A DNA stretch of 64,000 nucleotides from assembly GCF_027359595.1 (NCBI RefSeq), contig NZ_CP114783.1:1240001-1304000 (forward strand), given 5' to 3'. The notes beneath the pieces were generated by a model. It worked only from the letters and a program-made list of their open reading frames with translations, searched no databases and was not told the origin of the DNA. Position 1 is the first letter of the stretch. Each line of letters begins with the position of its first letter. A program made the translations under genes and the position numbers. The DNA is from Prochlorococcus marinus str. MIT 0912. Lineage in GTDB: Bacteria; Cyanobacteriota; Cyanobacteriia; PCC-6307; Cyanobiaceae. Of the stretch, positions 38,814 through 55,464 are shown in pieces.

Positions 38814-38899
38814 CAAAATGAATAAAAAATTTGGTAAAAACTGATACACCTTAAGTTTAGATTTTGAAGGTTAATTATAAATGTCAACTATCAATACTA

Positions 38900-40561: not shown

Positions 40562-40608
40562 TTCGATTTTATAAAAAATTATTTTTCTTACTTTTTAAAT
40601 TTATGACT
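40478..40608 (+). repeat. copy 1 of a 131-bp perfect core within a 203-bp tandem duplication
   Basis: This copy covers the last 28 codons of nirA, the 41-base spacer and the first six bases of a focA-like start. It is identical to 40681-40811, 203 bases downstream. Similarity weakens but continues on both sides: SRFMNWFSPLG versus SRFINWFNNLG upstream, and MTQSTSQMSYVLP versus MTASASQMDYVLP downstream. Confidence 0.95.
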
Positions 40609-40764
40609 CAAAGTACTTCTCAAATGAGCTACGTCTTACCTAAAGATTCTATTTCTCGTTTCATCAATTGGTTTAACAACCTTGGCAAAGATAAACCGCT
40701 GATTAATCGAGCTAATGGCAGCCCCGACATCTTTTCCAAATTTATGAATCGAATTAGTAATTAA
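40603..40764 (+). CDS. chimeric mini-ORF: focA-like N-terminus fused to nirA-like C-terminus
   Basis: A 53-residue reading frame (ATG 40603, TAA 40762-40764) starts MTQSTSQMSYVLPKDS, which matches the FocA start (MTASASQMDYVLPNEL), and continues ISRFINWFNNLGKDKPLINR to the end of NirA (FMNRISN). It is a product of the 203-bp tandem duplication. The frame has stayed open although its two ends have diverged from the parents, so it may be translated, but it may equally be a by-product. It has no full domain of either parent. Translation is unproven. Confidence 0.6.
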   Translation: MTQSTSQMSYVLPKDSISRFINWFNNLGKDKPLINRANGSPDIFSKFMNRISN

Positions 40765-40811
40765 TTCGATTTTATAAAAAATTATTTTTCTTACTTTTTA
40801 AATTTATGACT
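40681..40811 (+). repeat. copy 2 of the 131-bp perfect core of the tandem duplication
   Basis: Identical to 40478-40608. It contains the nirA-like 3' end of the chimeric ORF, the 41-base spacer and the first six bases of focA itself. Because the spacer is repeated, both the chimeric ORF and focA have the same upstream sequence (TTTTTCTTACTTTTTAAATT) in place of a distinct promoter or ribosome-binding site. Confidence 0.95.
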
Positions 40812-41717
40812 GCAAGTGCCTCTCAAATGGATTACGTCTTACCAAATGAATTGGTAGATGGAATGATTGCTGCAGGTGGAAAGAAATCATCTGTAAGCGT
40901 AAAAAACTTATTAATAAGAGGCTTCTATTCAGGAGCAATTTTAGGTTTAGCTACATGTCTTGCCATTACGATAGGTATTCAATCTGGGATGCCTTGGTTA
41001 GGTTCTTTCATATTTCCTTTTGGTTTTGCAAGTATTGTTCTTTTTGGAATGGAGCTTGTTACTGGTAATTTTGCTTTACTGCCTATGGCTGTATGGGCAG
41101 GTAAAAGTTCTTGGACTGCAACTGTAAGAAATTGGCTATGGGTTTGGATCGGTAATTTTCTAGGTACAGCATTTGTTGCCGTACTACTTTCAATTAGTTT
41201 ATCTAGTGCTGGAAATGTAGATCCTTTAGCTGCTGCTGAAGGTGGAAAAGGATGGGCAGTTGTAGCAGCAAAAATAATAGCTATACATAAAGCAAACACA
41301 GTTGTGAAATATGAAGCACTTGGAAGTACTGGTTTTTTCCTTGCATTTTTACGTGGGGTAATTGCAAACTGGCTTGTTTGTTTAGGTGTAACAATGGCAC
41401 TTGTAAGTAAAAGTGTTCCAGGAAAGATACTTGCTTGCTGGCTACCTATAACTGCATTCCAAACAATGGGAATGGAGCACATAGTAGTTAATATGTTTTT
41501 GCATACAACTGGCCCTCTACTTGGTTCAGGTATTCCTTTTACAAAAGTAATTTTTTGGAATTTCTTACCAGTGACTATTGGCAATATTGTTGGAGGAATG
41601 GTATTTATTGGAATGCTTTTCTATAGCACCCACAAAACTCCTATCTCTAATGTTTTACCAGACGTAAAAGATGAAAAATTAGAACGAGAGCTCGAAGCAC
41701 AACTTGGTGCAAGGTAA
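40806..41717 (+). CDS. focA: formate/nitrite transporter family protein (nitrite uptake)
   Basis: The 303-residue membrane protein has the FNT fold with about six transmembrane helices and the family signatures FGMELVTGNFALLPMA, WIGNFLGTAF and MGMEHIVVNMF. In Prochlorococcus this gene beside nirA is the nitrite transporter. The short spacer to the chimeric ORF/nirA suggests co-transcription. A long perfect hairpin follows. Confidence 0.94.
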   Translation: MTASASQMDYVLPNELVDGMIAAGGKKSSVSVKNLLIRGFYSGAILGLATCLAITIGIQSGMPWLGSFIFPFGFASIVLFGMELVTGNFALLPMAVWAGKSSWTATVRNWLWVWIGNFLGTAFVAVLLSISLSSAGNVDPLAAAEGGKGWAVVAAKIIAIHKANTVVKYEALGSTGFFLAFLRGVIANWLVCLGVTMALVSKSVPGKILACWLPITAFQTMGMEHIVVNMFLHTTGPLLGSGIPFTKVIFWNFLPVTIGNIVGGMVFIGMLFYSTHKTPISNVLPDVKDEKLERELEAQLGAR

Positions 41718-41783: not shown

Positions 41784-41935
41784 TATATCTACTATTTAAT
41801 AGCTATAAATAGAATTTGAAAAGACTTTCAATTAATCTCTAGACAAATCATATACTTGACTTGATTAATAGACAAAGAGTAACTTATAAAACTACTTTGA
41901 TTAATTATTTTCAAATCCCATTCAATTTAAATTTT

Positions 41936-42646
41936 ATGATTATTGAAGAAAGCAATATATGGGATACCATTAATAACGCAAAAAAAACCAGGCCTAGCGC
42001 TGAGTGGCTTAAAAATGCATACAATCCAAATATTAACTTTGAACTCAGGCAAGAAATCGCAATTCGCTTAGGACAATTATCAAAAGTAGGATGGATCGAA
42101 ATCAAAGATCTAATTCATACATATGGCAATCAAGATGAACTAATCCTAGCTGCAGGACTTACTTATCAAGATGAAGCCAAAGCATGGCTGTTAAAACATC
42201 TTTATAGTGGTGACACTATGAATATCAAAGTCGTAGAAGCTTTGGCTTGTTGGGGAGGAACATTACCGATTGAGCTTATCAAAAAAATATTAGAAGAGAA
42301 AAGTGAAAAAATGAAAATAGCTGGTCTAGAATTACTAAAGTTTAAAGCTCATTTACTTTCTGATTTTGATTTACTTGACATAGCAAAATCACCTTTAAAT
42401 GATTTCAGAGAAGAGATAGTAATCAAAACACTGACAATCATTCAAAGACGTGAAAGCTTAGAAATCTGTATGGCTATAAGCGATGTAATACAAAAAGGCT
42501 CGGATAAATCTGCATACTATGGACTAATGGCTCTTGGTTCAATCGGAACTGACATTAGTAAAAATATCCTATTAGATTTAGTTAAAAATTTGAAGAATTC
42601 TCAGCGCAAAGAACTTGCAAAAAAACAACTGAACTTGAAAATATAA
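41936..42646 (+). CDS. HEAT-like repeat protein linked to nitrite assimilation
   Basis: The 236-residue product (ATG 41936; a TTG at 41861 would add 25 residues) is built of helical repeats with ELRQEIAIRLGQLSK, KVVEALACWGGTLPIELIKKIL and YGLMALGSIGTDISKNILLDLV, which resemble HEAT/PBS-lyase repeats. No enzyme motif is present. Its place right after nirA-focA suggests a role in nitrite reduction or its control; helical-repeat scaffolds occur with other cyanobacterial metabolic and pigment proteins. Function unknown. Confidence 0.75.
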   Translation: MIIEESNIWDTINNAKKTRPSAEWLKNAYNPNINFELRQEIAIRLGQLSKVGWIEIKDLIHTYGNQDELILAAGLTYQDEAKAWLLKHLYSGDTMNIKVVEALACWGGTLPIELIKKILEEKSEKMKIAGLELLKFKAHLLSDFDLLDIAKSPLNDFREEIVIKTLTIIQRRESLEICMAISDVIQKGSDKSAYYGLMALGSIGTDISKNILLDLVKNLKNSQRKELAKKQLNLKI

Positions 42647-42652
42647 ACTCCA

Positions 42653-42724
42653 ATGTAAAATAAATATGAAGAATTTAATACCTATTTAAAGAAATTAGGT
42701 ATTGGTAAATTTACCGGAAAAAGT
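42653..42724 (+). pseudogene. remnant of the 5' end of a TrpD2-like gene
   Basis: Aligned without gaps from ATG 42653, 59 of 72 bases match the start of the intact gene at 54406. The second codon is now TAA in place of TCG, and after it the frame reads KYEEFNTYLKKLGIGKFTGK versus KYEEFKPYLKKIGSGEFTGK. Similarity ends after AAAAGT at 42724 and the frame stops at 42734. Only 24 codons remain. It lies six bases after the HEAT-like gene. Confidence 0.9.
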
Positions 42725-42822
42725 CATAAACACTAAAAAAATAATATTTTTTATGAATTAATAGTATATATTTAAATATAAGTAAATTATCAAAATAAAG
42801 ATTTACTGATATTAACTAAATT

Positions 42823-43578
42823 TTAAGCAAAAGCTAATTTAAAGCTTGCTAAAAATAAGATAAAAGAAATAATTTTTTTAATAAAATTATCATCAAATTG
42901 TCTACTACCAAGAGAACTGCCACAAAAAGCAAAAAACAATACAACAATTAAATGAAGAAAAATATTAGATGTGAAATTAATTTTTGAAAAATTATTTATT
43001 GTTTGCCATGTAATTATTCCAACTAAAGAATTAAAAAAAATAAAAACGGATGAAGCTGCAGCTGTAGTTTTAAGTGGCATCCACTTAAGTAAAATAGATA
43101 GAGGAGTTAAAAATATACCACCTCCTGTCCCAGTAATTCCAGATAGTAAGCCAAGTATTGAACCAGTAAAAAAAATAACAATTTTTGAGGGCAGCTTATA
43201 ATCAGTTATAGTATTATTTTTTATTATTGACGATGTAATTAAAAATCTAATTCCGGAAAGAAACAGTATAAGAGATAAAAAATATCTAAGTAAGGTATCA
43301 GTAATATTCAAGTTACCTCCAACAATTGTAGAGGGAATTGAAACTAATAGAATTGGTATTAAAAAATTAACTAATGTATATTTTTTTAAATGGCCATCAC
43401 CACAAAATCTTATTGAATTTAATGTTGATGCTGCCAGATTCAAAATTAAAGCTGTTGGCTTGATAAGTGAAACTGGCTTATCAAATATGACCATACACGC
43501 TATATAACCTGATGCACCAGCATGTCCAACAATCGAATAAAGAAAAGCAATTAATGCTATCCCAATGAAATAAAGCAC
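42823..43578 (-). CDS. TSUP-family (TauE/SafE) membrane permease
   Basis: The 251-residue protein has about seven to eight hydrophobic helices and the family pattern: GHAGASGYIACMVIF at the start, a repeated GGGIFLTPLSILLKWMPLKTTAA in the second half with GLLSGITGTGGG before it. TSUP proteins move sulfur-containing anions or related organic acids. The gene lies 26 bases downstream of moaB on the same strand, within the molybdenum-cofactor group. Sulfite, sulfate or molybdate are possible substrates; this is inference. Start is GTG at 43578. Confidence 0.8.
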   Translation of the reverse strand: MLYFIGIALIAFLYSIVGHAGASGYIACMVIFDKPVSLIKPTALILNLAASTLNSIRFCGDGHLKKYTLVNFLIPILLVSIPSTIVGGNLNITDTLLRYFLSLILFLSGIRFLITSSIIKNNTITDYKLPSKIVIFFTGSILGLLSGITGTGGGIFLTPLSILLKWMPLKTTAAASSVFIFFNSLVGIITWQTINNFSKINFTSNIFLHLIVVLFFAFCGSSLGSRQFDDNFIKKIISFILFLASFKLAFA

Positions 43579-43604
43579 TCTTTTAATCCATATCTTTATT
43601 CCAT

Positions 43605-44099
43605 CTATTTTTTTAATCTATTAATTAAATTTATCAAATTACATGGTTTAGTATCACTGTTTAGTTGATATTTTATTATTTGATTCCATGCAGTATTTAC
43701 TGCATCTAAAGATCCTGGCAAACTAAAGATAAAAGTTCCATTCGCAACACCTGCAATACATCTACTTTGCAAGGTGCTCGTACCAATTTTCTTAAATGAT
43801 GTATATCTAAAGATTTCCGCAAAACCTTCTATTTCTTTATCTAATAAGGGTTTTATTGCCTCAGGCGTAACATCAGTAAAAGTAAGCCCTGTACCTCCAG
43901 TAGTGATAATAACATCAATCTCATCATCAGCTATCCAATCACTTATATACTTTCTAATAATATAAACATTATCCTTGCATATTATTCTATTACTTATATT
44001 ATGTTTATCTATTTTTACTGAATCAACTAAAAATTGACCACTATCATCATTTTTTATGTCTCGAGTATCAGATACAGTTAACAATGCAATAGAAACCAC
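43605..44099 (-). CDS. moaB: molybdenum cofactor biosynthesis protein MoaB
   Basis: MoaB/MogA-type proteins adenylate molybdopterin before molybdenum insertion. The 164-residue protein has LTVSDTRDIKNDDSGQFL, the IITTGGTGLTFTDVTPEA motif and the FSLPGS motif of the MPT-binding fold. It starts at GTG 44099, 38 bases from the divergent moaD, and is followed by the TSUP permease gene. Confidence 0.94.
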   Translation of the reverse strand: MVSIALLTVSDTRDIKNDDSGQFLVDSVKIDKHNISNRIICKDNVYIIRKYISDWIADDEIDVIITTGGTGLTFTDVTPEAIKPLLDKEIEGFAEIFRYTSFKKIGTSTLQSRCIAGVANGTFIFSLPGSLDAVNTAWNQIIKYQLNSDTKPCNLINLINRLKK

Positions 44100-44137
44100 T
44101 TAGTATAAAACAATTAAAATATATGAATTAACTATAC

Positions 44138-44389
44138 ATGAAAAATAATGCTAGCCAAATCAAAGTATTATTGTTTGCTGAATTAAGTGAAAAATATGGA
44201 TGGGATGAAAAATATCTTTCTTTAGACCTAATAGAAGATAAAAAAGCAAAATCTATACTAAAACATATTAATATCAATGTAGCTCACCAATCAATAATTG
44301 TGGCTATTAATAAAGAAATTTCTAGTCTAGAAGAAACTGTTAAAGATAATGATGAGGTAGCATTCATGCCGATTTTTACAGGTGGATAA
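44138..44389 (+). CDS. moaD: molybdopterin synthase small subunit MoaD
   Basis: MoaD is the ubiquitin-like sulfur carrier of molybdopterin synthase. The 83-residue protein has LLFAELSEKYGWDE near the start, DEVAFMPIFTGG at the end, and the required C-terminal Gly-Gly for thiocarboxylation. Its stop overlaps the GTG start of moaE, so the two subunits are translationally coupled. Confidence 0.95.
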   Translation: MKNNASQIKVLLFAELSEKYGWDEKYLSLDLIEDKKAKSILKHININVAHQSIIVAINKEISSLEETVKDNDEVAFMPIFTGG

Positions 44390-44828
44390 AATTAAGTACA
44401 AATTCAAAATAGCAACTGATCCTTTTGATCCATATCGAGAAATTGAAAAATGGGAAATTAATAATCAAATGGCTGCAATGTCAATTTTTATTGGACGAGT
44501 TAGAGAGATAGATCAATTTGGAAGTCAATTAAAACAATTAGAAATCCATCACTACAGTGGTTTAACTGAAAAGTTAATCGAAAAGCACTTATCAGAAATT
44601 ACTAAAAAAATCGAATCTTTTTCTGCGTTAGTTATCCATCGAGTAGGCTTCATTGATCCACTAGAGCCAATAGTGCTCATAGCAGTTGGTGCTGATAAAA
44701 GAGGAATAGCTAATCAATACTGCTCTGAAATTTTAGAGGTGACAAAATTCAAAGTACCTTTCTGGAAAAAGGAGTGGACTGACGCAGGTTCTTCCTGGGT
44801 CAAAAATAATACTGTACTTTCAACGTGA
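44382..44828 (+). CDS. moaE: molybdopterin synthase catalytic subunit MoaE
   Basis: MoaE converts precursor Z to molybdopterin with sulfur from MoaD. The 148-residue protein shows AAMSIFIGRVREIDQFG, the LEIHHYSGLTE segment, HRVGFIDPLEPIVLI and the catalytic region KVPFWKKEWTDAGSSWV with conserved lysines. Start is GTG 44382 overlapping moaD. It is convergent with moeA, with one base between stops. Confidence 0.95.
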   Translation: MDKIKYKFKIATDPFDPYREIEKWEINNQMAAMSIFIGRVREIDQFGSQLKQLEIHHYSGLTEKLIEKHLSEITKKIESFSALVIHRVGFIDPLEPIVLIAVGADKRGIANQYCSEILEVTKFKVPFWKKEWTDAGSSWVKNNTVLST

Positions 44829-44829
44829 A

Positions 44830-46107
44830 CTATAAAATTGTTTTTCTGAAAAGCTGTGCCCAAAGATATGTTCCTTTCTTAAGTAAATCTTTTTCAGGTG
44901 GTATCTCTATTAACAGATCAGAATCAATTAGAGAAGAAATTTGTGAGGATGATTGTGCAGGTGGAATATCCGCGTATAACTCACCTTGCTGATCTACTTT
45001 AAGTTTAGATCTAATCAATTCAGGTCTACCTTTTCTTCTTTTAAGATCAGAATTAATTCTGATCTTAAATCTAAGGGGTGTTTCTATGTTCTTCACTCCA
45101 CTAAAAACTTGAAATACGGGCCACAAAATTTGCAAACAAATTACTACTGCAGACACAGGATTACCAGGTAAACCAAAAAATGGAATATCTTGACCAATAA
45201 AACCAAAGGCAAAGGGTCTACCAGGCTTTAAAAAAAGCTTCCAGAACTTTATTTCTCCAATTTCATTAATAATATTTTTAATATAGTCTTTTTTCCCAAC
45301 GGAAATTCCACCTATGGAAATTACAATTTGATTATTTTTTGCAAGTTCAATAAGAGAATTCTTTAATTTGAATTTATCGTCTGCTTGAATTGATATTTCA
45401 TTGATATCATATCCAAGATTTTTTATAATACTTTTAATTAAAAAACTATTACTTTCCCAGATTAATCCAGTTGATTTATCTATACCAGGTTTGATTAATT
45501 CATCGCCTGAAATAAGTAATCCTATTTTGAAAGATTTAAACACACTAATATAACTTATTCCACAACTAGCAAGTAATCCAATAATACTAGGAGTAATTTT
45601 TTGACCCTTCGCTAATACGATATCTCCTTCCGATAATTGATCATTAACAGATCTAATCCAAGTACTATTCGTTAAGTCGTCTATGAGATGTATTTTCTCA
45701 AAAGAGCTATCTTTTATCATTTCTGTCTTTATCTGTTCTAAAGGAATAACCCAAGAGCATTCATCAGGAACTAATGAACCAGTGCTTATAGCAATGGCTT
45801 CACCTTCAGAAAGATTTTTAGTGTAAGGTTTACCAGCGGATGAATCTCCAACAACTTTCCAATATTGTCCTTTCTGAGGTTTGGCAGAATGACTAACCGC
45901 GTAACCATCCATTATGGAGGCTCTAAAGCCGGGAATATTCTGTTTTACAAAAATATCTGTTGAAGAAATTTTTTCTAAGGAATCTTCTAAAGGAATACTT
46001 ACGAAAGGAATAGTAAAATCATCTAAAACGTTCTTGATTTCCTTTAAAATTTCTTTTCTAGCTTCTTCTACTTTTAATCCCTCCCTTAAAAAAGGCTCTT
46101 GAGTCAT
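44830..46107 (-). CDS. moeA: molybdopterin molybdenumtransferase MoeA
   Basis: MoeA inserts molybdenum into adenylated molybdopterin. The protein (about 425 residues from ATG 46107) has the MoeA order: IPGFRASIMDGYAV, GEAIAISTGSLVPDECSWVIPLEQ, LLISGDELI, GGISVGKKDYIKNII, KLFLKPGRPFAFG and FFGLPGNPVSAVVICLQ. Complete. moaC lies just upstream on the same strand, so moaC-moeA are likely one unit. Confidence 0.96.
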   Translation of the reverse strand: MTQEPFLREGLKVEEARKEILKEIKNVLDDFTIPFVSIPLEDSLEKISSTDIFVKQNIPGFRASIMDGYAVSHSAKPQKGQYWKVVGDSSAGKPYTKNLSEGEAIAISTGSLVPDECSWVIPLEQIKTEMIKDSSFEKIHLIDDLTNSTWIRSVNDQLSEGDIVLAKGQKITPSIIGLLASCGISYISVFKSFKIGLLISGDELIKPGIDKSTGLIWESNSFLIKSIIKNLGYDINEISIQADDKFKLKNSLIELAKNNQIVISIGGISVGKKDYIKNIINEIGEIKFWKLFLKPGRPFAFGFIGQDIPFFGLPGNPVSAVVICLQILWPVFQVFSGVKNIETPLRFKIRINSDLKRRKGRPELIRSKLKVDQQGELYADIPPAQSSSQISSLIDSDLLIEIPPEKDLLKKGTYLWAQLFRKTIL

Positions 46108-46114
46108 CAAAAAA

Positions 46115-46600
46115 TTAATTAGTTTCTCTCCTCAGGATACCTTTTTTGCCTCCTTTTTTTTCTAAAAGTCGAATTGAATTTATTGTTAAAAAAGGATCGA
46201 TAGCTTTAAGCATATCGTAAATAGTTAGTAATCCTATAGACACCGCCGTAAGTGCTTCCATCTCTACACCAGTTTGAGCATTAGTTTTACATAATGCAGT
46301 TATTTTTATCGCTCTTTTTTTATTACATAGATCTATATCAATCCTGATATTACTTAAACTTAATAAGTGACAAAGTGGGATTAATTCCGAAGTTTTTTTA
46401 GATGCATTAATTGCAGCAAATCTTGCAGCAGCAAATAAATCTCCTTTTTTTATATTGCCGTCTTTAACGTTATCAAATACTTCCACACTTAAATCAATAT
46501 ATCCTTCAGCGAGAGCTTCTCTAGGAGTGCTTATTTTCTCAGAAATATCAACTATAAACATATCGCCCTTCTCATTTAAATGAGTTAGGTTTGAATCCAT
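46115..46600 (-). CDS. moaC: cyclic pyranopterin monophosphate synthase MoaC
   Basis: MoaC works after MoaA to form cPMP from GTP. The 161-residue protein has MFIVDISEKISTPREALAEG, AARFAAINASKKTSELIPLCHLL, and TGVEMEALTAVSIGLLTIYDM followed by the LLEKKGGKKG end. All are typical. It starts at ATG 46600 and ends seven bases before moeA. Confidence 0.96.
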   Translation of the reverse strand: MDSNLTHLNEKGDMFIVDISEKISTPREALAEGYIDLSVEVFDNVKDGNIKKGDLFAAARFAAINASKKTSELIPLCHLLSLSNIRIDIDLCNKKRAIKITALCKTNAQTGVEMEALTAVSIGLLTIYDMLKAIDPFLTINSIRLLEKKGGKKGILRRETN

Positions 46601-46720
46601 TTTCTTATTTATGATTAGTTATAATGATAAATAAAAAATAATGATTAATTATTATATGTTAGAGAATAGTAAAATTCACAAATAAGTTATTATGGTTAAA
46701 TTAAATCCGTAGGTTTTGAC

Positions 46721-47188
46721 TTGGAACAATCAAGCCACTGTTTTGAATTTGAAGATGAATTTATTAGTGATCTAAGATGTATACCTTTATGCGTTCGTAG
46801 GAAACTTGATCTTATCGGTTTAAAACTAAAACTTCAACATTGGCAAGAGTTAAATCACGATGATAAAAGAAAAATAGTTTATTGGTCAGATTCGATTGAC
46901 GACTTAGATGGATTAAAATCCTATTTGATTAGTAAAACTAGTCGTAGTCGTATAGGTCAAGCAAAAGAAATTTTAATTTCAAAAGATGAGCCCTGGTTGT
47001 TATCGGGTACAGTCCCAGACTTTATTGATGTTGAAGCAAGCAAATATACATTTCAGATCTCTCAGAAAATATGGTCTAATTTGAGCGAACTTGAAAGGTT
47101 CGCTCTATGTAAACTTGCAAGACCTGGACATGAACACCGAAATCTTATTAAAGCTTTTAAAGAAATATTAATCAATAATGATTCTTAG
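46721..47188 (+). CDS. narM: nitrate reductase-associated protein NarM
   Basis: NarM is a small cyanobacterial protein required for active nitrate reductase NarB. The 155-residue product fits the family: CFEFEDEFISDLRCIPLCVRRKLD at the start, KLKLQHWQEL, and a C-terminal ELERFALCKLARPGHEHRNL. No cofactor site is evident. The only usable start is TTG at 46721; an in-frame stop lies just upstream (46697). It sits between the divergent moaC and mobA. Confidence 0.9.
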   Translation: MEQSSHCFEFEDEFISDLRCIPLCVRRKLDLIGLKLKLQHWQELNHDDKRKIVYWSDSIDDLDGLKSYLISKTSRSRIGQAKEILISKDEPWLLSGTVPDFIDVEASKYTFQISQKIWSNLSELERFALCKLARPGHEHRNLIKAFKEILINNDS

Positions 47189-47312
47189 CAATTATAGAGA
47201 TTTCGAATAATGAAGATTAGATCAATTAAATTAATTTATAGTTTATGTTTTCATGATAACAAAATAAATATTTATTCATGTTTTATGCTAGTTTTTAAAT
47301 TAGAGAAAATTA

Positions 47313-47927
47313 ATTATCATTTTAGATAGTTCTACTAAGAAAGAACTCAAAGCTTGTATTCTCTCTGGGGGGCAAAGTACAAGAATGGGTAAAGATAAGG
47401 CACTATTAAAACATCATGAAGGCGATAGCTGGTTATCACATAAATTAAATATTCTGAAAAAACTGGACTTAGAAACTATCCTCTTAACTAATCATCAATC
47501 TCATATAAATGAAATTAGTGAATTTCATAAAGTAAATATATTATTTGATAAAAAACCTTTCCATGGACCACTAAATTGTATGGAGTTTTTATATTCAAAA
47601 TTTTTAGGAAAATATGACTATATACTCTTAATGCCAGTAGATATGCCTTTCATTAATAGCAAGCATATTGAAAATTTTATAAAGTATTGGCAAAAAAATA
47701 GAGATATAGCTCTTATCGCACATAGTAATAAAATGGCTCAACCTCTACTTGGTATTTATCCTCTAAATCAAGCTAACTTAAATAAATTAAATGAAAGACT
47801 TCAATTAGGTAAAATAAACTTTCAGGGATGGACAAAATCAATTCCTTTTCATTATTATTTTGCCAAAGACAAAGAATTCATAAATGTCAACTCATTAAAA
47901 GAACTAAAATCACTAAATTATTATTAA
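47313..47927 (+). CDS. mobA: molybdenum cofactor guanylyltransferase MobA, without a canonical start codon
   Basis: MobA attaches GMP to molybdopterin to give the bis-MGD cofactor needed by NarB. The conserved N-terminal motif ILSGGQSTRMGKDKALL is fully in frame, followed by the DMPFI metal-site region (VDMPFI). The frame opens after a TAG at 47301 and contains no ATG, GTG or TTG before the motif; the first ATG (47385) cuts the motif in half. I mark ATT 47313 as a possible rare start. The 3' end is three bases from the moaA start. Confidence 0.85.
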   Translation: MIILDSSTKKELKACILSGGQSTRMGKDKALLKHHEGDSWLSHKLNILKKLDLETILLTNHQSHINEISEFHKVNILFDKKPFHGPLNCMEFLYSKFLGKYDYILLMPVDMPFINSKHIENFIKYWQKNRDIALIAHSNKMAQPLLGIYPLNQANLNKLNERLQLGKINFQGWTKSIPFHYYFAKDKEFINVNSLKELKSLNYY

Positions 47928-47930
47928 AGT

Positions 47931-48977
47931 ATGATGAAAGATATTCATGATAGAGAGTTAAAAGTTTTAAGGCTTTCATTAACTAATAAATGTAATTTTT
48001 CATGTCCATATTGTTTGCCAGAAAATAATAGCTGTTTGACTACATTAACTAATAAGCAATTCCTATCAATAATTAAGGTTGCTTGCAAATTAGGAGTAAA
48101 CTCACTCAGATTAACTGGGGGAGAGCCATTAATAAGCAGTCAGTTGAATAAGCTGATGGAAGCAATTAATAAATTAAAGAAAACAAGAAATCATCCTATT
48201 AATAATTTAAAAGACATTGCTATAACTACAAATGGATCATTATTAACAAAAGATAGATGTCAAGATTTATTTGCTTATGGACTCAACAGGATCACAGTTA
48301 GTCTAGATGCCTTAGATCCAAAAATATTTTCAATAATGACAGGAGATAATAATATGATTTCAGCTAAGAATAAGCTGAATCATGTTCTCCAAGGCATTGA
48401 TAATGCCATCAAAGCAGGCTTTGATCCATTAGAGGGTCAGCTGAAAATAAACTGTGTCATCAAAAAGAACATAAATGATAATCAGATCATAAATCTTGTT
48501 CGCTTTGCTAAAGCTAAATCTATTGAAATTAGATTCATAGAATATATGGATGTAGGAAATAAGAATAATTGGCAAGCTAATGAAGTTCTACAATCTCACG
48601 AATTGATAAGTATAATAAAACAACATTTTAAAATTAATGAGGCTGGAAGATTAAAAGGTAATACAGCCCATAAATGGTATATGAAAGATAGCAATAGCTT
48701 CATAAGTACTATATCTTCGATATCTAATCCTTTTTGTTCTGACTGCAATAGATTAAGGATTACTAGTGATGGTTTCGCACATACTTGCCTTTTTTCAAAC
48801 AATGGTTCTGATTTAAAAAAATGGCTCAATCCATCAATTAATGAAAAAGGCTTAGAAGAATTTCTGGAGACAATATGGCTAATAAGAGATGATAAATATA
48901 GTGAAAATAGATTTGATAAATCTGATAACTCGAAACCACAAAAACCTCATCCTTCAATGTCGTATTTAGGAGGTTAA
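47931..48977 (+). CDS. moaA: GTP 3',8-cyclase MoaA
   Basis: MoaA is the radical SAM enzyme starting molybdopterin synthesis from GTP. The 348-residue protein has the N-terminal cluster motif CNFSCPYC, the RLTGGEPL segment, the C-terminal cluster motif CSDCNRLRITSDGFAHTC and the terminal Gly-Gly that enters the active site. It follows mobA by three bases. Confidence 0.97.
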   Translation: MMKDIHDRELKVLRLSLTNKCNFSCPYCLPENNSCLTTLTNKQFLSIIKVACKLGVNSLRLTGGEPLISSQLNKLMEAINKLKKTRNHPINNLKDIAITTNGSLLTKDRCQDLFAYGLNRITVSLDALDPKIFSIMTGDNNMISAKNKLNHVLQGIDNAIKAGFDPLEGQLKINCVIKKNINDNQIINLVRFAKAKSIEIRFIEYMDVGNKNNWQANEVLQSHELISIIKQHFKINEAGRLKGNTAHKWYMKDSNSFISTISSISNPFCSDCNRLRITSDGFAHTCLFSNNGSDLKKWLNPSINEKGLEEFLETIWLIRDDKYSENRFDKSDNSKPQKPHPSMSYLGG

Positions 48978-49000
48978 AATCCATATGCACAAAGAAAATA

Positions 49001-49014
49001 GTATTAACTAGTAC
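49001..49014. promoter_or_regulatory. GTA-N8-TAC palindrome (candidate NtcA box) before the 57-aa ORF
   Basis: GTATTAACTAGTAC fits the NtcA core GTA-N8-TAC. It is 24 bases after the moaA stop and 99 bases before the GTG of a small ORF. A good -10 at the usual 22-24 bases is not obvious (TAATTT occurs 28 bases on). Confidence 0.5.
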
Positions 49015-49113
49015 ATAAATTAAAAAATAATCTTTTGAAAATTAATTTTCGTATAAATAAAGACAACTGAAGTACTAAAAATCTAGGAAATTCGCATTAG
49101 TCGTTTCAAAAAA

Positions 49114-49287
49114 GTGCGCTTTGCTATTAGTTTAGGAATGTTAATGGGTATGACTCATGGTTGGTATGTAAGTAAAGGTTATGCATCTACAAACCAATAT
49201 AATGATACTTATTTTCAGTCTGAGATTAACCAACTTCCCACCTACTCTTTTTTGAAATCTAAAAATACAGGATTGAGTTTTAATTAA
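49114..49287 (+). CDS. small ORF, single hydrophobic N-terminal segment
   Basis: A 57-codon frame from GTG 49114 to TAA 49285 encodes RFAISLGMLMGMTHGWYVSK, a short membrane or signal-like segment, followed by a polar tail ending LSFN. It has no known motif. It is the first of three small ORFs between moaA and nrtP and lies downstream of a candidate NtcA box. Gene status depends on expression evidence. Confidence 0.5.
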   Translation: MRFAISLGMLMGMTHGWYVSKGYASTNQYNDTYFQSEINQLPTYSFLKSKNTGLSFN

Positions 49288-49306
49288 TTTAATTTAATTT
49301 AATTTA
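49283..49306 (+). repeat. short AATTT tandem repeat
   Basis: About four head-to-tail AATTT units occur at and just after the stop of the small ORF. It is a simple low-complexity tract with no clear role. Confidence 0.6.
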
Positions 49307-49421
49307 GAATTATAATAAGTAAAATTTATAAAAGTAACTACAGTCAATACAATTTAGTTTTCTGTTCATTGATTTTTTTGTATCAACCTGAACCACTTTT
49401 AAGAGCTTAAAGCATTATATT

Positions 49422-49435
49422 GTATTAACTAATAC
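49422..49435. promoter_or_regulatory. GTA-N8-TAC palindrome (candidate NtcA box) before the DUF4278-like ORF
   Basis: GTATTAACTAATAC matches GTA-N8-TAC and differs from the box at 49001 by one base. It lies 68 bases before the ATG of the DUF4278-like gene. No convincing -10 hexamer is at the expected distance. Confidence 0.5.
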
Positions 49436-49503
49436 AAAATTCTTCTTTTTAGATCAGCTCGGGTCTTCTTTAGAACTTTTGCATAGTTCATCACTCTATT
49501 CTC

Positions 49504-49677
49504 ATGGATCTCCTTACATACAGAGGTCAAAAATATCTACCAGAAGACATTAAAAATCTTCACTACTCAAACACGAGTTATCTAGATAGGCAAATCAAAG
49601 CCAAAATGACCATCAATGAGACTCTATTTTCTTATAGAGGCATAAATTATAAAAAATCAAAGCATACAGAAAGGTAA
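49504..49677 (+). CDS. small DUF4278-like protein with two YRG motifs
   Basis: The 57-residue product begins MDLLTYRGQKYLPEDIKN and later has LFSYRGINYKKSK. Two YRGxxY motifs, one near each end, are the mark of the DUF4278 family of short cyanobacterial proteins of unknown function. The gene lies 68 bases downstream of a candidate NtcA box in the nitrate cluster. It may be a nitrogen-responsive small protein, which is inference. Confidence 0.68.
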   Translation: MDLLTYRGQKYLPEDIKNLHYSNTSYLDRQIKAKMTINETLFSYRGINYKKSKHTER

Positions 49678-49770
49678 AAGATGTAGCAGTCAAATATTTT
49701 GGAAGAATTTTTAAATACTTTTGTATTACGCTGAACAACACTGCTCTTAAAAGATAATCATAATAAATTT

Positions 49771-49784
49771 GTAGTCATTACTAC
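49771..49784. promoter_or_regulatory. GTA-N8-TAC palindrome within an 8-bp inverted repeat
   Basis: GTAGTCATTACTAC matches the NtcA core with flanking T and A, inside the perfect inverted repeat TTTGTAGT-CATT-ACTACAAA (49768-49787). It is directly before the predicted RNA element. If NtcA activated from this site, transcription would begin inside that element, so the palindrome may instead be a repressor site, a box for another promoter or an RNA hairpin. Confidence 0.4.
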
Positions 49785-49788
49785 AAAA

Positions 49789-49848
49789 CGTTCAACTCGC
49801 TTCAGCGAGCCGCAAACCGCCTTAAGCCAAGGAACGGGGGACTTAAGC
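49789..49848 (+). ncRNA. candidate glutamine-II (Downstream-peptide) riboswitch
   Basis: The element folds as follows: P1 CGTTC (49789-49793) with GAACG (49832-49836); P2 CTCGC (49796-49800) with GCGAG (49805-49809) closed by TTCA; then a single-stranded CCGCAAACC; and a pseudoknot of CTTAAG (49821-49826) with CTTAAG (49842-49847) just after P1. This order, with CGTTCA at the 5' side, AAGGAACG at the 3' side and an H-type pseudoknot, matches what I know of the Downstream-peptide/glutamine-II riboswitch, which occurs in picocyanobacteria before short ORFs. The 104-aa gene starts 20 bases later. Confidence 0.65.
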
Positions 49849-49868
49849 TAAAACGATCCAAATTAAAC

Positions 49869-50183
49869 ATGCCTACAAGTTCCATACAAAGCACTGAAAA
49901 AAGTGCCATTACTGTTTCAGCAGGATTTTTAGGAGCATTCATTATTAGTTCTTTAGCTGTTCAGCTTTTTAGAAGCTATTCCCCTGCTGTTCAAAATAAA
50001 TTAACTACTGTTGACCCAGTAATTGCTAGTCCTGCCACTCTTTGGTCTGAACTGGGGACACGAGATAACATTATTATTAAACAATCAAATACAAAATTAA
50101 ATACAAATAGTTCAAGTTCTATCAATATTGAACCTGTAATAACCTCTGAGGCAACTTTATGGTCTCCTCTTTTTGTTGATTGA
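49869..50183 (+). CDS. 104-aa membrane-anchored protein with an internal repeat
   Basis: The product has one hydrophobic helix (residues about 14-34), then a periplasm- or cytoplasm-facing tail with two copies of a 14-residue unit: DPVIASPATLWSEL (49-62) and EPVITSEATLWSPL (88-101). They are linked by an Asn/Ser-rich stretch. The repeat is likely a short binding motif. No family is recognised. Its leader carries the candidate glutamine riboswitch and it lies between moaA and nrtP, so a link to nitrogen status is likely by context only. Confidence 0.72.
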   Translation: MPTSSIQSTEKSAITVSAGFLGAFIISSLAVQLFRSYSPAVQNKLTTVDPVIASPATLWSELGTRDNIIIKQSNTKLNTNSSSSINIEPVITSEATLWSPLFVD

Positions 50184-50525
50184 TTTTACTCATCTTCAAT
50201 TGATTAATTGATGCAAGTATGATGAATGATAATTTAGATTATCAGAAAAATTTTAAACTGAATTAAAGAAAATCAATACATTCGATATCTAATATTTTGT
50301 ATTTTTTGCCACATAGTATTCAAGATCTTGAAATCCTCAGACAAATAATTCGTTTTAGTAGCAATAACTACTTAATTAAACAAATAGGTATAAAACTATC
50401 ATTTTTTGTATCGACTACTACTTAGTCGGAGTATGCCGGCTGATTTAATTTTTCAAAACGGTTAGATTTTTTACCGTTTTTAATAGGCAAACTTTTTAAG
50501 CCTTCTTTCTTACTTTTTAATATCA
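50184..50525 (+). promoter_or_regulatory. 342-bp intergenic region with the nrtP promoter
   Basis: No gene is visible here. The region is AT-rich at the start. The last 120 bases hold the NtcA-type box at 50408-50421, a -10-like hexamer at 50444-50451 and a hairpin AAAACGGT/ACCGTTTT (50455-50462 with 50473-50480) just after the expected transcription start. Confidence 0.75.
50408..50421 (+). promoter_or_regulatory. NtcA box of the nrtP promoter
   Basis: GTATCGACTACTAC fits GTA-N8-TAC. TTTAAT begins 22 bases later and TAATTT (TAN3T form) 24 bases later, the spacing of NtcA-activated class II promoters. The nrtP start codon is 105 bases downstream. This is the best-formed NtcA promoter in the window. 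Confidence 0.85.
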
Positions 50526-52067
50526 ATGCTTGGCAATCTTTGGACATTTCAAGGGAGATATCGAACACTTCATCTCACTTGGTTCGCGTTCTTTCTAACT
50601 TTTGTTGTTTGGTTCAATTTAGCTCCCCTTGCTACGACTGTTAAAGCAGACTTGGGGCTCACTTTGGGTCAAATTCGAACTGTAGCTATCTGCAATGTTG
50701 CATTAACAATTCCAGCGAGAGTCCTCATCGGAATGCTCCTAGATAAATTTGGACCACGTAAAACATACTCAAGTCTTCTCATCTTTTCGGTAATTCCATG
50801 CTTACTTTTCGCCTCAGCAGAAACTTTTAATCAATTAGTTATCGCTCGCTTATTACTTTCAATTGTAGGTGCAGGATTTGTAATTGGTATTCGGATGGTG
50901 GCTGAATGGTTCCCACCTAAAGAAATCGGTCTAGCAGAAGGAATATATGGAGGTTGGGGTAATTTTGGCTCGGCTTTCTCGGCTCTGACAATGGTTGCCA
51001 TTGCTGGGTTACTTTCTTTTTCAGGTGGATTTGAATTACCAACAGGTGCCGTTCTTAACTGGCGAGGTGCTATCGCTGGCAGTGGTTTGATTTCAGCATT
51101 GTATGGCATCTTTTATTTCTTTAATGTCAGGGATACTCCTCCCGGAAAAATTTATCAGCGCCCAACTAAAACAGCTGGGCTAGAAGTCACTTCTATGCGA
51201 GATTTTTGGGGGCTTTTGGGTATGAATGTGCCTTTTGCAGCCATACTTTCTGTTTTATGTTGGAGGTTAAAGAAAGTTGGTTTCCTTGATGAGGGAACAT
51301 ATCCATTAGCTCTTTTCGCTGTTTTAATTTGGTTCGCTTTTCAGACCTGGGGGATTATTCGTACAAACTCAGAATTAATTGCAGGAACTAAAATTTATCC
51401 AAAAGAAGACCGTTATGAATTTAAACAAGTAGCCATTCTTGAACTAACATATATTGTTAATTTTGGTTCTGAGCTGGCAGTTGTTTCAATGTTACCTACT
51501 TTTTTTGAGACAACATTTGATTTACCAAAAGCAACTGCCGGCATTCTAGCCTCCTCCTTTGCTTTCGTTAACCTTATTGCACGTCCAGCTGGAGGTCTAA
51601 TTTCTGACAAGCTTGGAAGTAGAAAAAATACTATGAGTTTTCTAACCGGAGGCCTTGGAATTGGATACCTTGTCATGAGTTGGATCAAACCTGGTACTTT
51701 TTCAGGTGTAAGTGGAATTATCGTCGCATTGTTCATAACAATGCTTGCTTCCTTCTTTGTTCAGGCAGGGGAAGGCGCTACTTTTGCTCTAGTGCCACTT
51801 GTGAAAAGAAGAGTTACTGGACAGGTTGCTGGTCTTGTTGGTGCCTATGGCAACGTAGGAGCAGTTACTTATCTAACTATTTTTAGTCTTCTGCCTATGT
51901 GGATGAGTGGAGGTGGAGAAGCAACAGCAGAGATAATTGCTAATTCCAATAGTGCCTTTTTCCAAATCTTAGGAATAGCAGGGCTGATTGTTGCATTCAT
52001 GTGCTTTTTCTTTCTTAAAGAACCAAAAGGATCCTTCGATGAATTACATGAAGGGGAAATTGCTTAA
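50526..52067 (+). CDS. nrtP: nitrate/nitrite permease NrtP (NapA), MFS type
   Basis: The 513-residue major facilitator protein has 12 hydrophobic helices and the nitrate-porter signatures RMVAEWFPPKEIGLAEGIYGGWGNFGSA (in parts) in helix 5 and GAYGNVGAVTYL in helix 11, plus the MFS loop LLDKFGPRKTY. It has the NNP family traits rather than those of drug exporters. Marine cyanobacteria use it in place of the ABC NrtABCD transporter. The gene has a clear NtcA promoter and a terminator-like hairpin between it and narB. Confidence 0.96.
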   Translation: MLGNLWTFQGRYRTLHLTWFAFFLTFVVWFNLAPLATTVKADLGLTLGQIRTVAICNVALTIPARVLIGMLLDKFGPRKTYSSLLIFSVIPCLLFASAETFNQLVIARLLLSIVGAGFVIGIRMVAEWFPPKEIGLAEGIYGGWGNFGSAFSALTMVAIAGLLSFSGGFELPTGAVLNWRGAIAGSGLISALYGIFYFFNVRDTPPGKIYQRPTKTAGLEVTSMRDFWGLLGMNVPFAAILSVLCWRLKKVGFLDEGTYPLALFAVLIWFAFQTWGIIRTNSELIAGTKIYPKEDRYEFKQVAILELTYIVNFGSELAVVSMLPTFFETTFDLPKATAGILASSFAFVNLIARPAGGLISDKLGSRKNTMSFLTGGLGIGYLVMSWIKPGTFSGVSGIIVALFITMLASFFVQAGEGATFALVPLVKRRVTGQVAGLVGAYGNVGAVTYLTIFSLLPMWMSGGGEATAEIIANSNSAFFQILGIAGLIVAFMCFFFLKEPKGSFDELHEGEIA

Positions 52068-52088
52068 AATATCAATCAATTTTCAATC

Positions 52089-52116
52089 AAAACCTTGGGT
52101 AGTTACCCAAGGTTTT
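52089..52116 (+). terminator. hairpin between nrtP and narB
   Basis: The stem AAAACCTTGGGT/ACCCAAGGTTTT (12 bp, loop AGTT) starts 22 bases after the nrtP stop and is followed by ATTTTCTT. It should attenuate or end nrtP transcripts, giving less narB than nrtP mRNA. narB starts 24 bases after it. Confidence 0.8.
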
Positions 52117-52140
52117 ATTTTCTTATCTCATTGAAGTGAG

Positions 52141-54366
52141 ATGACAGAGAAAATTGAAAATTTAACTACTCAATGTCCATATTGCGGAGTTGGATGTGGT
52201 CTAGAAATGCAACCACCAGCTGAACTCGGAAAAGCAGTTCGTAGAGATTCAGATGGTTATCCGATGTGGAGGTCTAGAGGAGATCGCAATCATCCATCCA
52301 ACCTTGGACAAATATGTATTAAAGGTGCAACCGTAGGAGAAAGCTTATCTCCAGGGAGATTAAATCAACCTCTATATCGAGATAATTTCAATGATAAATA
52401 TCAACCGATTAGCTGGAATGAAGCTACAGATAAAATAGTTTCACAGATCAATCAAAGTTTGATCAAAAAAGGTCCAAACTCTATAGCGATGTATGGTTCT
52501 GGACAATTTCATACTGAAGACTACTATATTGCTCAAAAATTACTCAAAGGAGCGTTAGGTACAAATAATTTTGATGCAAATTCAAGACTATGTATGAGCT
52601 CAGCTGTCGCTGGATATAATTTAAGTCTTGGATCAGATGGTCCTCCATGTTGTTATGAAGACCTTGATCACTACACCGTTGCATTCCTTATTGGCACTAA
52701 CACTGCGGAATGCCATCCAGTACTTTTTCAACGTCTACTCAAAAGGAAAAAACTACATCATGATAAAGTAAAAATTATTGTTATAGATCCAAGATTAACC
52801 GACACTGCAAAAGCTGCTGACATTTATCTGCCTATTGCTCCAGGTAGTGACTTAGCTCTGTTATATGGTATTGCCCATTTGGTTCTGAAAAAAAATGGGC
52901 ACAATACAGAATTTATTGAAAATCATACAGATAAATATTCAGAATTCTTAGAGATTATAAAAAATTGGACGCCACGAAACGTTGCTCGCTTTTGTGGTAT
53001 CCCAGAAAAAAAATTAGAAGAAGTAGCTAATATGTTTAATCACCATGAAAGAGTGCTCAGTCTTTGGTCAATGGGGGTAAATCAACGAAGAGAAGGTACT
53101 GCAGTTGTTGGAGGACTTATCAATCTACATCTTCTTACAGGGCAAATTGGGAAAGAGGGAGCAGGACCTTTTTCACTTACTGGCCAACCAAATGCTATGG
53201 GAGGACGTGAAGCAGGAGGCCTATCCCATCTACTTCCTGGTTATCGAAATGTTTCTAATAAGGAACATAGACAAACAGTCGAAAATCATTGGGATTTTCC
53301 TGCTGGAAATATCTCTGAAGAACCAGGTTTAAATGCCTGGCAACAAATTGAAGCAATGGAAAAAGGAGAAATAGATCTTTGGTGGGTGGCTGCAACTAAC
53401 CCACTTGTAAGCATGCCTGATCTAAATCGAGTGAAAGCCGCAATAAAAAACTGTTCACTAGTTGTATTATCTGAAGCATATGTAAATACAGAAACCTCTC
53501 ATTACGCCCACCTATTATTACCCGCTGCACAGTGGAGCGAGAAAGCCGGTGTAATGACTAACTCAGAAAGACGAATTACTTATTGTCCAGCTTTTCGTCC
53601 TTGCTTTGGTCAAAGTCGTCCAGATTGGGAGATCTTTGCTGAAGTAGGCCAAAAACTTGGATTTGTTGATCAGTTTACTTACGATTCTTCTTCCGAGGTA
53701 TATTCAGAATTCACAGCTCTGACAAGCGGTCGTCTTTGTGATAGTTCGGGACTTAATCATGAATTACTAAAAAGTATTGGTCCCCAACAATGGCCATTTC
53801 CAAGAGAGAGTAATCCTACGAAAAAAGCCAAGCGACTTTATGAAGATAAAAAGTTTGCGACACCTAATGGTCGAGCCCAGTTTTACACTAAGCAACCTCT
53901 GGGAATTGCTGAGCCTCCATGCGATATGTATCCGTTAGTCTTAACTGTTGGGCGTTACCTGGGACAATGGCATACCATGACTCGTACTGGAAAAGTAAAT
54001 CGACTCAATAAAATGCACCCTGAACCATTACTTGAAATTCATCCTATGGATGCAAAAGATATGAATATCAAAGATGGTGAGTTATCTGCTCTTAATTCTC
54101 GTAGAGGATATATTACGGTACGTGTAAAAGAAACTGATCGTATTCGTCGAGGCACAGTTTTTCTTCCAATGCACTGGGGCTTCACGCAAACAAATCACTG
54201 TGAAGCAAATAACTTGATGCATGAACAATCATGTCCCGTATCTAAACAACCTGAACTAAAAGCAAGTGCTGTAATTGTGGCTCCAGTGAATGCTATCAAT
54301 CAACCAATTGAAAACGATGAAATAGGATTTGTTAAATACGTAAAAGAAATCGTCAATAGGCAATAA
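52141..54366 (+). CDS. narB: ferredoxin-nitrate reductase NarB
   Basis: NarB reduces nitrate to nitrite with ferredoxin electrons, using bis-MGD molybdenum and one [4Fe-4S] cluster. The 741-residue protein has cluster cysteines at residues 12, 15, 19 and 59 (CPYCGVGC and QICIKG), the probable molybdenum ligand Cys151 in SRLCMSS, the INLHLLTGQIGKEGAGP segment and a C-terminal MGD-binding domain (LTVGRYLGQWHTMTRTGK, HWGF). Full length. No separate strong promoter is visible between the nrtP hairpin and its ATG. Confidence 0.97.
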   Translation: MTEKIENLTTQCPYCGVGCGLEMQPPAELGKAVRRDSDGYPMWRSRGDRNHPSNLGQICIKGATVGESLSPGRLNQPLYRDNFNDKYQPISWNEATDKIVSQINQSLIKKGPNSIAMYGSGQFHTEDYYIAQKLLKGALGTNNFDANSRLCMSSAVAGYNLSLGSDGPPCCYEDLDHYTVAFLIGTNTAECHPVLFQRLLKRKKLHHDKVKIIVIDPRLTDTAKAADIYLPIAPGSDLALLYGIAHLVLKKNGHNTEFIENHTDKYSEFLEIIKNWTPRNVARFCGIPEKKLEEVANMFNHHERVLSLWSMGVNQRREGTAVVGGLINLHLLTGQIGKEGAGPFSLTGQPNAMGGREAGGLSHLLPGYRNVSNKEHRQTVENHWDFPAGNISEEPGLNAWQQIEAMEKGEIDLWWVAATNPLVSMPDLNRVKAAIKNCSLVVLSEAYVNTETSHYAHLLLPAAQWSEKAGVMTNSERRITYCPAFRPCFGQSRPDWEIFAEVGQKLGFVDQFTYDSSSEVYSEFTALTSGRLCDSSGLNHELLKSIGPQQWPFPRESNPTKKAKRLYEDKKFATPNGRAQFYTKQPLGIAEPPCDMYPLVLTVGRYLGQWHTMTRTGKVNRLNKMHPEPLLEIHPMDAKDMNIKDGELSALNSRRGYITVRVKETDRIRRGTVFLPMHWGFTQTNHCEANNLMHEQSCPVSKQPELKASAVIVAPVNAINQPIENDEIGFVKYVKEIVNRQ

Positions 54367-54405
54367 AAAATTGGTGACAATACTTACTTTTGAAAAATAA
54401 TTCCT

Positions 54406-55464
54406 ATGTCGAATAAGTACGAAGAATTTAAACCCTATTTAAAAAAAATAGGTAGCGGAGAATTTACAGGAAAAAGTCTCACTCGTGAAGAAAGCAAAGC
54501 AGCTCTCAAGCTGATACTTAAAGAAGAAGCAAGTGCAGCACAAATTGGTGGCTTCATGATTGCTCATAGAATTAGACGTCCAATCCCTGAAGAATTAGCG
54601 GGGATGATTGATGCCTATATTGACCTAGGACCAAAGATTCATTCAACCATTAATCAACGTCAACCTATATTTTTTGGGATGCCTTTTGATGGTCGAAAAA
54701 AAACAGCTCCAATTTATCCATTAACAACTTTACTATTACTAACTCAGAAACAACCTGTTATTTTGCATGGTGGTTCTCGTATGCCAGTGAAATATGGTGT
54801 TAGCCATAATGAACTCTTTCAAGCTTTAGGAATAAATTTAACCGGTCTATCCATAGAACAACTACAAAGTTTTTTCAACCATAACGGCCTAGCCTTAATG
54901 CATCAGCCAGATCATTTTCCGCTAGCTGAAAATTTGATTCCTTACAGAGATCAAATAGGTAAGAGACCACCACTTGCAAGTATGGAATTAATCTGGACAT
55001 GTCATCAGGGAAGTCATCTACATATAAGTGGTTATGTTCATTCTCCTACTGAAGAAAGACATTGGAAGACCTTAGAGCTTATCGGAGAACAAAATGTGAT
55101 TACTATCAAAGGACTAGAAGGAGGGATAGATCTTTCAATATGTCGTTCATCAACAATTGGACAATACAAAAATCAACACGGAACTAGAACAGTTTTTCAT
55201 CCCAAAGACTATGAATGTTCAGGACAAGATATTGAGTGGAATGACATCGAAGAATGGCAGAGATTTGCTTTGCAAGCTCTCAATGGCGAGGGTCCTCTAA
55301 CTAAATCACTAGAGTGGAATGCTGGTATTTACTTTTTTTATGCAGGTTTAAGCTCTGATATTAAAGAGGGAATTAATAAAGCAAAAGAAGTCATCAATTC
55401 AAGATTAGCTTTAAAGCACTTAGAAAAATTAATTAATTGGAGAGAAAAAAATATTGATTCGTAA
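54406..55464 (+). CDS. anthranilate phosphoribosyltransferase-like protein (TrpD2 type)
   Basis: The 352-residue protein has the nucleoside phosphorylase-type helical N-terminus (LKKIGSGEFTGKSLTREESKAAL, described in part; KEEASAAQIGGFMIAHRIR) and the PRPP/phosphate-site region VILHGGSRMPVKYG. It lacks the canonical GTGGD motif of true TrpD, so it is a TrpD-like family member of unknown substrate. It follows narB by 39 bases. Its first 72 bases have a degraded copy at 42653. It is probably not a tryptophan enzyme. Confidence 0.85.
   Translation: MSNKYEEFKPYLKKIGSGEFTGKSLTREESKAALKLILKEEASAAQIGGFMIAHRIRRPIPEELAGMIDAYIDLGPKIHSTINQRQPIFFGMPFDGRKKTAPIYPLTTLLLLTQKQPVILHGGSRMPVKYGVSHNELFQALGINLTGLSIEQLQSFFNHNGLALMHQPDHFPLAENLIPYRDQIGKRPPLASMELIWTCHQGSHLHISGYVHSPTEERHWKTLELIGEQNVITIKGLEGGIDLSICRSSTIGQYKNQHGTRTVFHPKDYECSGQDIEWNDIEEWQRFALQALNGEGPLTKSLEWNAGIYFFYAGLSSDIKEGINKAKEVINSRLALKHLEKLINWREKNIDS

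Follow-up and report, generated by a model that had tools for sequence, protein, structure and literature searches.

How did nitrate use come to be scattered within Prochlorococcus clades? This patchiness is an open question, and the usual answer to it is mainly loss. According to the accessible text of Berube et al. 2019 (eLife, PMC6370341), the LLI nitrate cluster, with type I or type II nirA, is gained and lost via homologous recombination in its flanks and shows low diversity, and sweeps have been proposed. The same text reports little evidence of non-homologous gain and equates the place of the cluster with that in Synechococcus. Three LLI functional types, MIT1214, MIT0915 and MIT0917, have since been described together with their physiology (Berube et al. 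2023, mBio, PMC10470740, as far as its accessible text goes).

We analysed a stretch of 64,000 nucleotides from Prochlorococcus marinus str. MIT 0912 (NZ_CP114783.1, positions 1,240,001 to 1,304,000; hereafter the window), in which the nitrate genes lie between an intact trpD2-like gene and a second, dead copy of that gene's start. A physical scar of this kind is direct evidence of gain; it gives polarity at one locus and says which functional type is derived. From sequence comparison we consider it probable, at roughly 0.8, that the window carries a derived chimeric allele in which a nitrate module was gained onto a nitrite-only locus.

The nitrate module and its flanks

The left arm of the locus carries, all on the forward strand, nirA for a type I ferredoxin-nitrite reductase (38864..40561; NCBIfam NF007125, E 9.5e-265), focA of the formate/nitrite transporter family (40806..41717; TIGR00790, E 8e-44, below cut-off) and a HEAT-like gene (41861..42646), which matches no Pfam family at E 0.01. 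A 53-aa ORF between nirA and focA (40603-40764) repeats NirA's last ~38 residues behind a focA-like start. It recurs in 15 of 16 nitrite-only genomes (twice in G005) and in two of the five genomes of the window's type in which the place is visible, and the 515-aa type II NirA is without the tail that it repeats. A link of this duplicated tail to NirP1 was rejected, as the accessible text of PMC10907346 reports no homologue in Prochlorococcus.

Just beyond the HEAT-like gene, the sequence-only reading had noticed a degraded 72-base copy of the trpD2 start, and this copy was borne out. Its bases at 42653 are identical to those at 54406 at 59 of 72 positions, the second codon is TAA, and the next best placement of the 72-mer, slid across the window on both strands, reaches 37/72. 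The copy proved longer than first described. By blastn it matches the trpD2 start at E 3.9e-17 over 91 columns, extending into the HEAT tail. Compared with a consensus built from the 16 nitrite-only trpD2 genes, it agrees at 13/20 of bases 73-92 (shuffles equally good, 0.001) and at only 5/20 of bases 93-112. Because the match stops after base 92, we place the stub at 42653..42744 (forward strand, ~92 bases). By its own letters the stub is a dead trpD2 copy; all six genomes of this type, that of the window included, read TAA at codon 2, and in one of the others (G019) the start codon is also altered, to ATA. It is preceded by a HEAT stop codon and a six-base spacer, both as found ahead of the intact trpD2 of nitrite-only genomes. 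Downstream, an A+T-rich spacer (42745..42822) occurs at that place only in genomes of the window's type; the G+C content of 42647-42822 is 0.165, and a source for these 78 bases was not found in 41 genomes, where matches elsewhere were weak (best E 1.8e-6).

The module, as identified with Pfam and NCBIfam models, begins with a TauE/SafE-type permease (42823..43578, reverse strand; PF01925, E 5.6e-25). It continues with moaB (43605..44099, reverse; TIGR02667, above cut-off), moaD and moaE (44138..44828, forward; NCBIfam, below curated cut-offs), moeA (44830..46110, reverse; NF007960, E 8e-100, below cut-off), moaC (46115..46600, reverse; TIGR00581, above cut-off), narM (46721..47188, forward; TIGR02664, above cut-off), mobA and moaA (47385..48977, forward; NCBIfam, moaA above and mobA below cut-off), small ORFs, and nrtP for a NarK-family nitrate/nitrite transporter (50526..52067, forward; TIGR00886, above cut-off). 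At its right end is a molybdopterin oxidoreductase gene (52141..54366, forward), which scores best with formate dehydrogenase and NasC models, under their cut-offs, and is probably narB, a name given from context. A spacer (54367..54405) then leads to the intact trpD2-like gene (54406..55464, forward; NF005635, above cut-off). The G+C content of nrtP and narB (50526-54366) is 0.39-0.41, compared with 0.26-0.32 for narM and the Mo-cofactor genes (moa, moe, mob) of the module.

Three haplotypes and their polarity

We searched 41 genomes of the genus (a single genome for each species, that of the window among them) with the HEAT-junction DNA, NarB and TrpD2, and mapped 20 genes on the resulting loci by tblastn; cbiX, GNAT, MFS and ppk are labels that we presume for some of these genes. 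The locus is polymorphic at one syntenic place, with narB in 14/41 genomes versus an empty junction in 16/41. In these 16 nitrite-only genomes (type A), cobA-cbiX-nirA-focA-HEAT is followed directly by an intact trpD2, and none of them has a narB match at 1e-100. Six genomes, including that of the window (type C: G000, G013, G019, G026, G028 and G030), have the type A left arm, then the stub, then the module from permease and moaB to narB, then trpD2. In G026 the contig stops inside the stub and the module is on a separate contig, and the contigs of G019 split inside narB. In G030 (AG-402-B05), trpD2 (L112, 901-1957) is in two frames with an internal stop, either an assembly error or real decay. 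Five genomes (type B) have a type II nirA ~70% identical to type I and a divergent HEAT gene, 38-39% identical and matching HEAT_2 at 1e-5, below cut-off, followed by the same module. Three of them (G003, G016, G027) are contiguous, with neither stub nor focA; the single-contig coordinates of G017 leave no space for a stub, and in G024 the contig stops at HEAT, so that its link to the module is presumed.

In the three other narB-bearing genomes (G021, G029, G040) the left arm is out of view. HEAT and trpD2 are adjacent in G039, where no nirA was found, the order is cobA-trpD2 in G010 and G034-G037, and five genomes of 54-69% completeness (G008, G009, G011, G025, G032), in which no trpD2 was matched at 1e-20, were left untyped. 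By gene set alone, types A, C and B correspond to the nitrate and nitrite gene sets given for MIT1214, MIT0915 and MIT0917, respectively, in the accessible text of PMC10470740.

The sequence-only reading had favoured nirA-focA-HEAT-trpD2 as the ancestral order, with the nitrate module entering at the last junction. The comparison that it proposed supports this order: HEAT is followed directly by an intact trpD2 in 16/16 nitrite-only relatives, and none of the 16 shows a remnant or unrelated sequence before trpD2. More distant genomes agree. Among 78 trpD2 loci from named genomes, HEAT lies upstream of trpD2 in 17 loci outside the 41 genomes (TrpD2 51-60% identical), and in none of these 17 is there a nitrate gene between the two. 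Some have another ORF there, such as the 165-aa ORF in L165, which we take to be cyanase-like; in MIT 0701 (L154) the interval holds spacer and short ORFs only. In five loci from Synechococcus and an uncultured cyanobacterium (L150, L165, L170, L171 and L187), an inverted group of moaB, moaD and moaE lies beyond cobA, accompanied within the limits of the locus by moeA, moaC or narM, and in L173, L175, L180 and L184 narM-narB-nrtP is on the far side of trpD2. Because these outgroups keep their nitrate genes outside the HEAT-trpD2 interval, the position of the module in LLI is a derived one.

The phylogeny of the HEAT gene gives the same polarity. The HEAT genes of all six type C genomes form one clade (100/99) within type A diversity, sister to nitrite-only G038 (100/98). 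Forcing type A to be monophyletic was rejected (13 log units, p-AU 0.011), in a test that was framed after seeing the tree. Since HEAT and trpD2 have no nitrate gene between them in 16/16 and 17/17 loci and the type C clade is nested, the nitrite-only order is older and the window haplotype is a derived chimera, its HEAT gene being of recipient ancestry.

These data bear directly on the opposite history, in which the nitrate-plus state with a stub is ancestral and nitrite-only chromosomes arose by deletion, for example between the two trpD2 starts. Published emphasis lies on this side: in the accessible text of PMC6370341, exchange can bring both loss and acquisition and loss is expected to dominate, and in that of PMC10470740, the upstream half is said to have been lost from MIT1214, and focA to have been kept by MIT0915. 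Yet the stub's TAA codon occurs in 0/16 nitrite-only trpD2 alleles and, since type C is also nested within type A, nitrite-only chromosomes did not arise from type C by deletion; the distant loci, too, have HEAT and trpD2 with no nitrate genes between them. We therefore regard a deletion origin as improbable. The second option of the sequence-only reading, a direct repeat that permits loss, fares no better: besides the missing TAA and the nested clade, the stub is itself decayed, most of it being deleted in three of the five genomes in which it can be read whole (G026 is the sixth). The 71-base stub deletion is common to G013, G019 and G028, whose HEAT genes also form a clade (99/96). Loss by recombination between the trpD2 copies was thus rejected, and, unlike in the retention and loss described in PMC10470740, type C appears here as a derived graft.

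The left and right joins

What, then, joined the module to its neighbours? Up to about base 92 of the first trpD2, the left arm is that of a nitrite-only chromosome. DNA foreign to the type A order starts inside that gene, and a complete trpD2 stands after the module. At four diagnostic sites in the trpD2 start, the stub is nitrite-only-like at three, two of which (sites 6 and 12) have the same states in outgroups; at base 4 it has T, as in nitrate-plus and outgroup alleles. The intact right-hand start is of the nitrate-linked class and differs in class from the stub at 3/4 sites. For this reason, although two copies in direct orientation are indeed present, as the sequence-only reading had it, they are probably no simple duplication, and the stub is probably better read as recipient DNA left next to donor DNA.

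The right join was examined over the 36 bases before the intact trpD2, which resemble the tail and spacer of a type A HEAT gene. We scored this likeness against shuffles, window 36-mers, 313 background upstream regions and 25 outgroup trpD2 upstreams. The window has a mean anchored score of 6.7, equalled by 1/313 background regions. Eight other genomes score 8.9-11.4 (0/313), six of them with one identical spacer; G017 is middling (5.1; 4/313), and G003, G024, G028 and G040 are weak (1.3-3.6; 10-36 of 313). Thus, 9/14 genomes are matched by at most 1/313 background regions, and the nine distinct spacers divide into four strong, one middling and four weak. The outgroup upstreams score from -12.2 to 2.9. 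Because of this resemblance, the right border may well have been cut inside a HEAT tail, for which the evidence is moderate.

With HEAT-tail and trpD2-start sequence adjoining both ends of the module, as stub on the left and as HEAT-tail-like spacer on the right, the module could instead have entered the HEAT-trpD2 junction first, for example as a circle, duplicating about 100 bases and so creating type C, with type B formed later by a foreign left arm carrying type II nirA and the divergent HEAT. The type B genome G003, in which the divergent HEAT stop is 3 bases from the permease, would fit such a history, which likewise places a gain of nitrate genes at a nitrite-only junction. But the right trpD2 start differs in class from the stub, more illegitimate joins are required than for a graft, and module divergence is slightly higher between type B genomes than between type C genomes (about 1.7% among three versus about 1.2% among four). 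Insertion with duplication as the sole explanation was demoted on account of that class difference, and we hold this order of events to be a rather unlikely, though serious, alternative.

The two partial repeats around a discrete module might also suggest a mobile element. Tycheposon-like elements are tRNA-linked and integrative, with a tRNA at the border and a tyrosine recombinase. The nitrate module has neither: there are no tRNAs between 33 and 64 kb in the window, and no tyrosine recombinase among the 14 module proteins tested. These 14 proteins, all from between the two copies, include no transposase or integrase. In a transposon's target-site duplication both flanking copies would derive from one target sequence; here they fall in different trpD2 start classes at 3/4 sites, which can be read either way. 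NarB peptide patterns, which cover close relatives only, were unmatched in viral contigs, and a phage vector was rejected. Delivery by a mobile element or tRNA-linked island is thus very improbable.

The graft of the module onto a nitrite-only locus, which we prefer, would have proceeded as follows. A nitrite-only cell would have taken up a donor fragment that carried the module together with the donor's trpD2. On the right this fragment would have recombined homologously, in trpD2 or beyond; on the left it would have been fused by illegitimate recombination to the interior of the resident trpD2, whose start would survive as the dead stub. Homology-facilitated illegitimate recombination is known from transformation experiments, and a product with homology at one end only would have the structure of type C, here read from a natural scar. 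Most economically, a stub-free nitrate haplotype (type B or a relative) came first and may have supplied the module to type C; the slightly higher type B divergence fits a B-like source but is no proof. The order of events is less certain than the derived, joined state, and the weaker points of the case include the small number of type C genomes, six, and the faint likeness to a HEAT tail in 4/9 distinct right-join spacers.

Exchange of the haplotype

To follow the haplotype after its formation, we compared the four type C genomes with contiguous modules and three type B genomes (G019 and G026, and G017 and G024, have stretches too short for this comparison). Between type C genomes, divergence is 0.4-1.8% at 42.8-51.8 kb, 2.7-4.7% over the end of nrtP and narB, mainly owing to G000, and 6-9% from trpD2 onward. 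Leftward it is 0.2-2.1% at 38.8-42.6 kb, with nirA at 0.3-1.7% (4/6 type C genomes), so that nirA belongs to the low-diversity haplotype; farther left it is uneven, at 2.7-4.6% (38.0-38.8 kb, with 4.6% at 38.0-38.4 kb), 1.5-1.9% (37.2-38.0 kb) and about 6% (36.6-37.2 kb). Cluster diversity is thus low against the flanks, as judged from 4/6 type C and 3/5 type B genomes. In a right-flank tree of 31 genomes, from which G003 and G026 were excluded, one clade for five type C genomes was rejected (p-AU 1.7e-7). Because the region from nirA to nrtP is 0.2-2.1% divergent on chromosomes that have 6-9% divergent flanks and do not form one clade, homologous recombination with crossovers inside trpD2 would later have carried the haplotype from one chromosome to another.

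The intact trpD2 gene, as the right arm for such exchange, carries a sharp boundary. Between nitrate-plus (14) and nitrate-minus (16) genomes, an Fst-like measure reaches 0.66 in bases 1-25 (0/500 shuffles as high) and is at most 0.05 in the nine following windows, with one weak further site at base 712. Base 4 is a fixed difference, being A in 16/16 nitrate-minus and 0/14 nitrate-plus genomes. That differentiation is confined to the first 25 bases of trpD2 means that homologous recombination within the gene has exchanged alleles, and since differentiation is gone from base 26, the right exchange border lies within the first bases of the gene.

The cluster described in PMC6370341 is the same as the one analysed here. 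Unlike a gain with both borders homologous, type C was joined without homology on its left side, within trpD2, although the later spread of this haplotype may still have used homology. The main text of that paper never uses the words remnant, pseudogene, junction or trpD, and no description of the scar was found in the openly accessible literature searched. What appears to be new, beyond the exchange and sweeps already in print, is the scar together with the polarity and the abrupt trpD2 boundary.

Taking these results together, we lean towards a broader proposal: nitrate use would have been regained, and not just retained, in LLI Prochlorococcus when one illegitimate join grafted the module onto a nitrite-only locus and so brought nitrate reduction together with focA and type I nirA, the configuration published as non-leaking for nitrite in MIT0915. 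Exchange since then would have been so frequent that linkage to trpD2 is lost about 25 bases into that gene. The scar connects the published types that leak nitrite and those that do not, of which one can feed nitrite to nitrite-only cells, with events at the genome level, and the stub with its TAA, together with trpD2 bases 4-15, offers a marker by which gains could be followed in metagenomes and single cells.

Two further features of the locus vary among the haplotypes. The module's largest difference between types B and C lies at 47619-50604 (3.5-7.7%, versus at most 2.2% within each type), a region that covers mobA, moaA and small ORFs and has one weak DUF4278 match below cut-off. Beside the locus, cobA (37071-37856) occurs in several allele classes that are mixed among haplotypes, and a tie of type B cobA to the cobA-trpD2 outgroups was not seen; in two of the three type B genomes, cobA is 90-93% identical in DNA to that of nitrite-only G038 and G007, versus 82% to that of the window.
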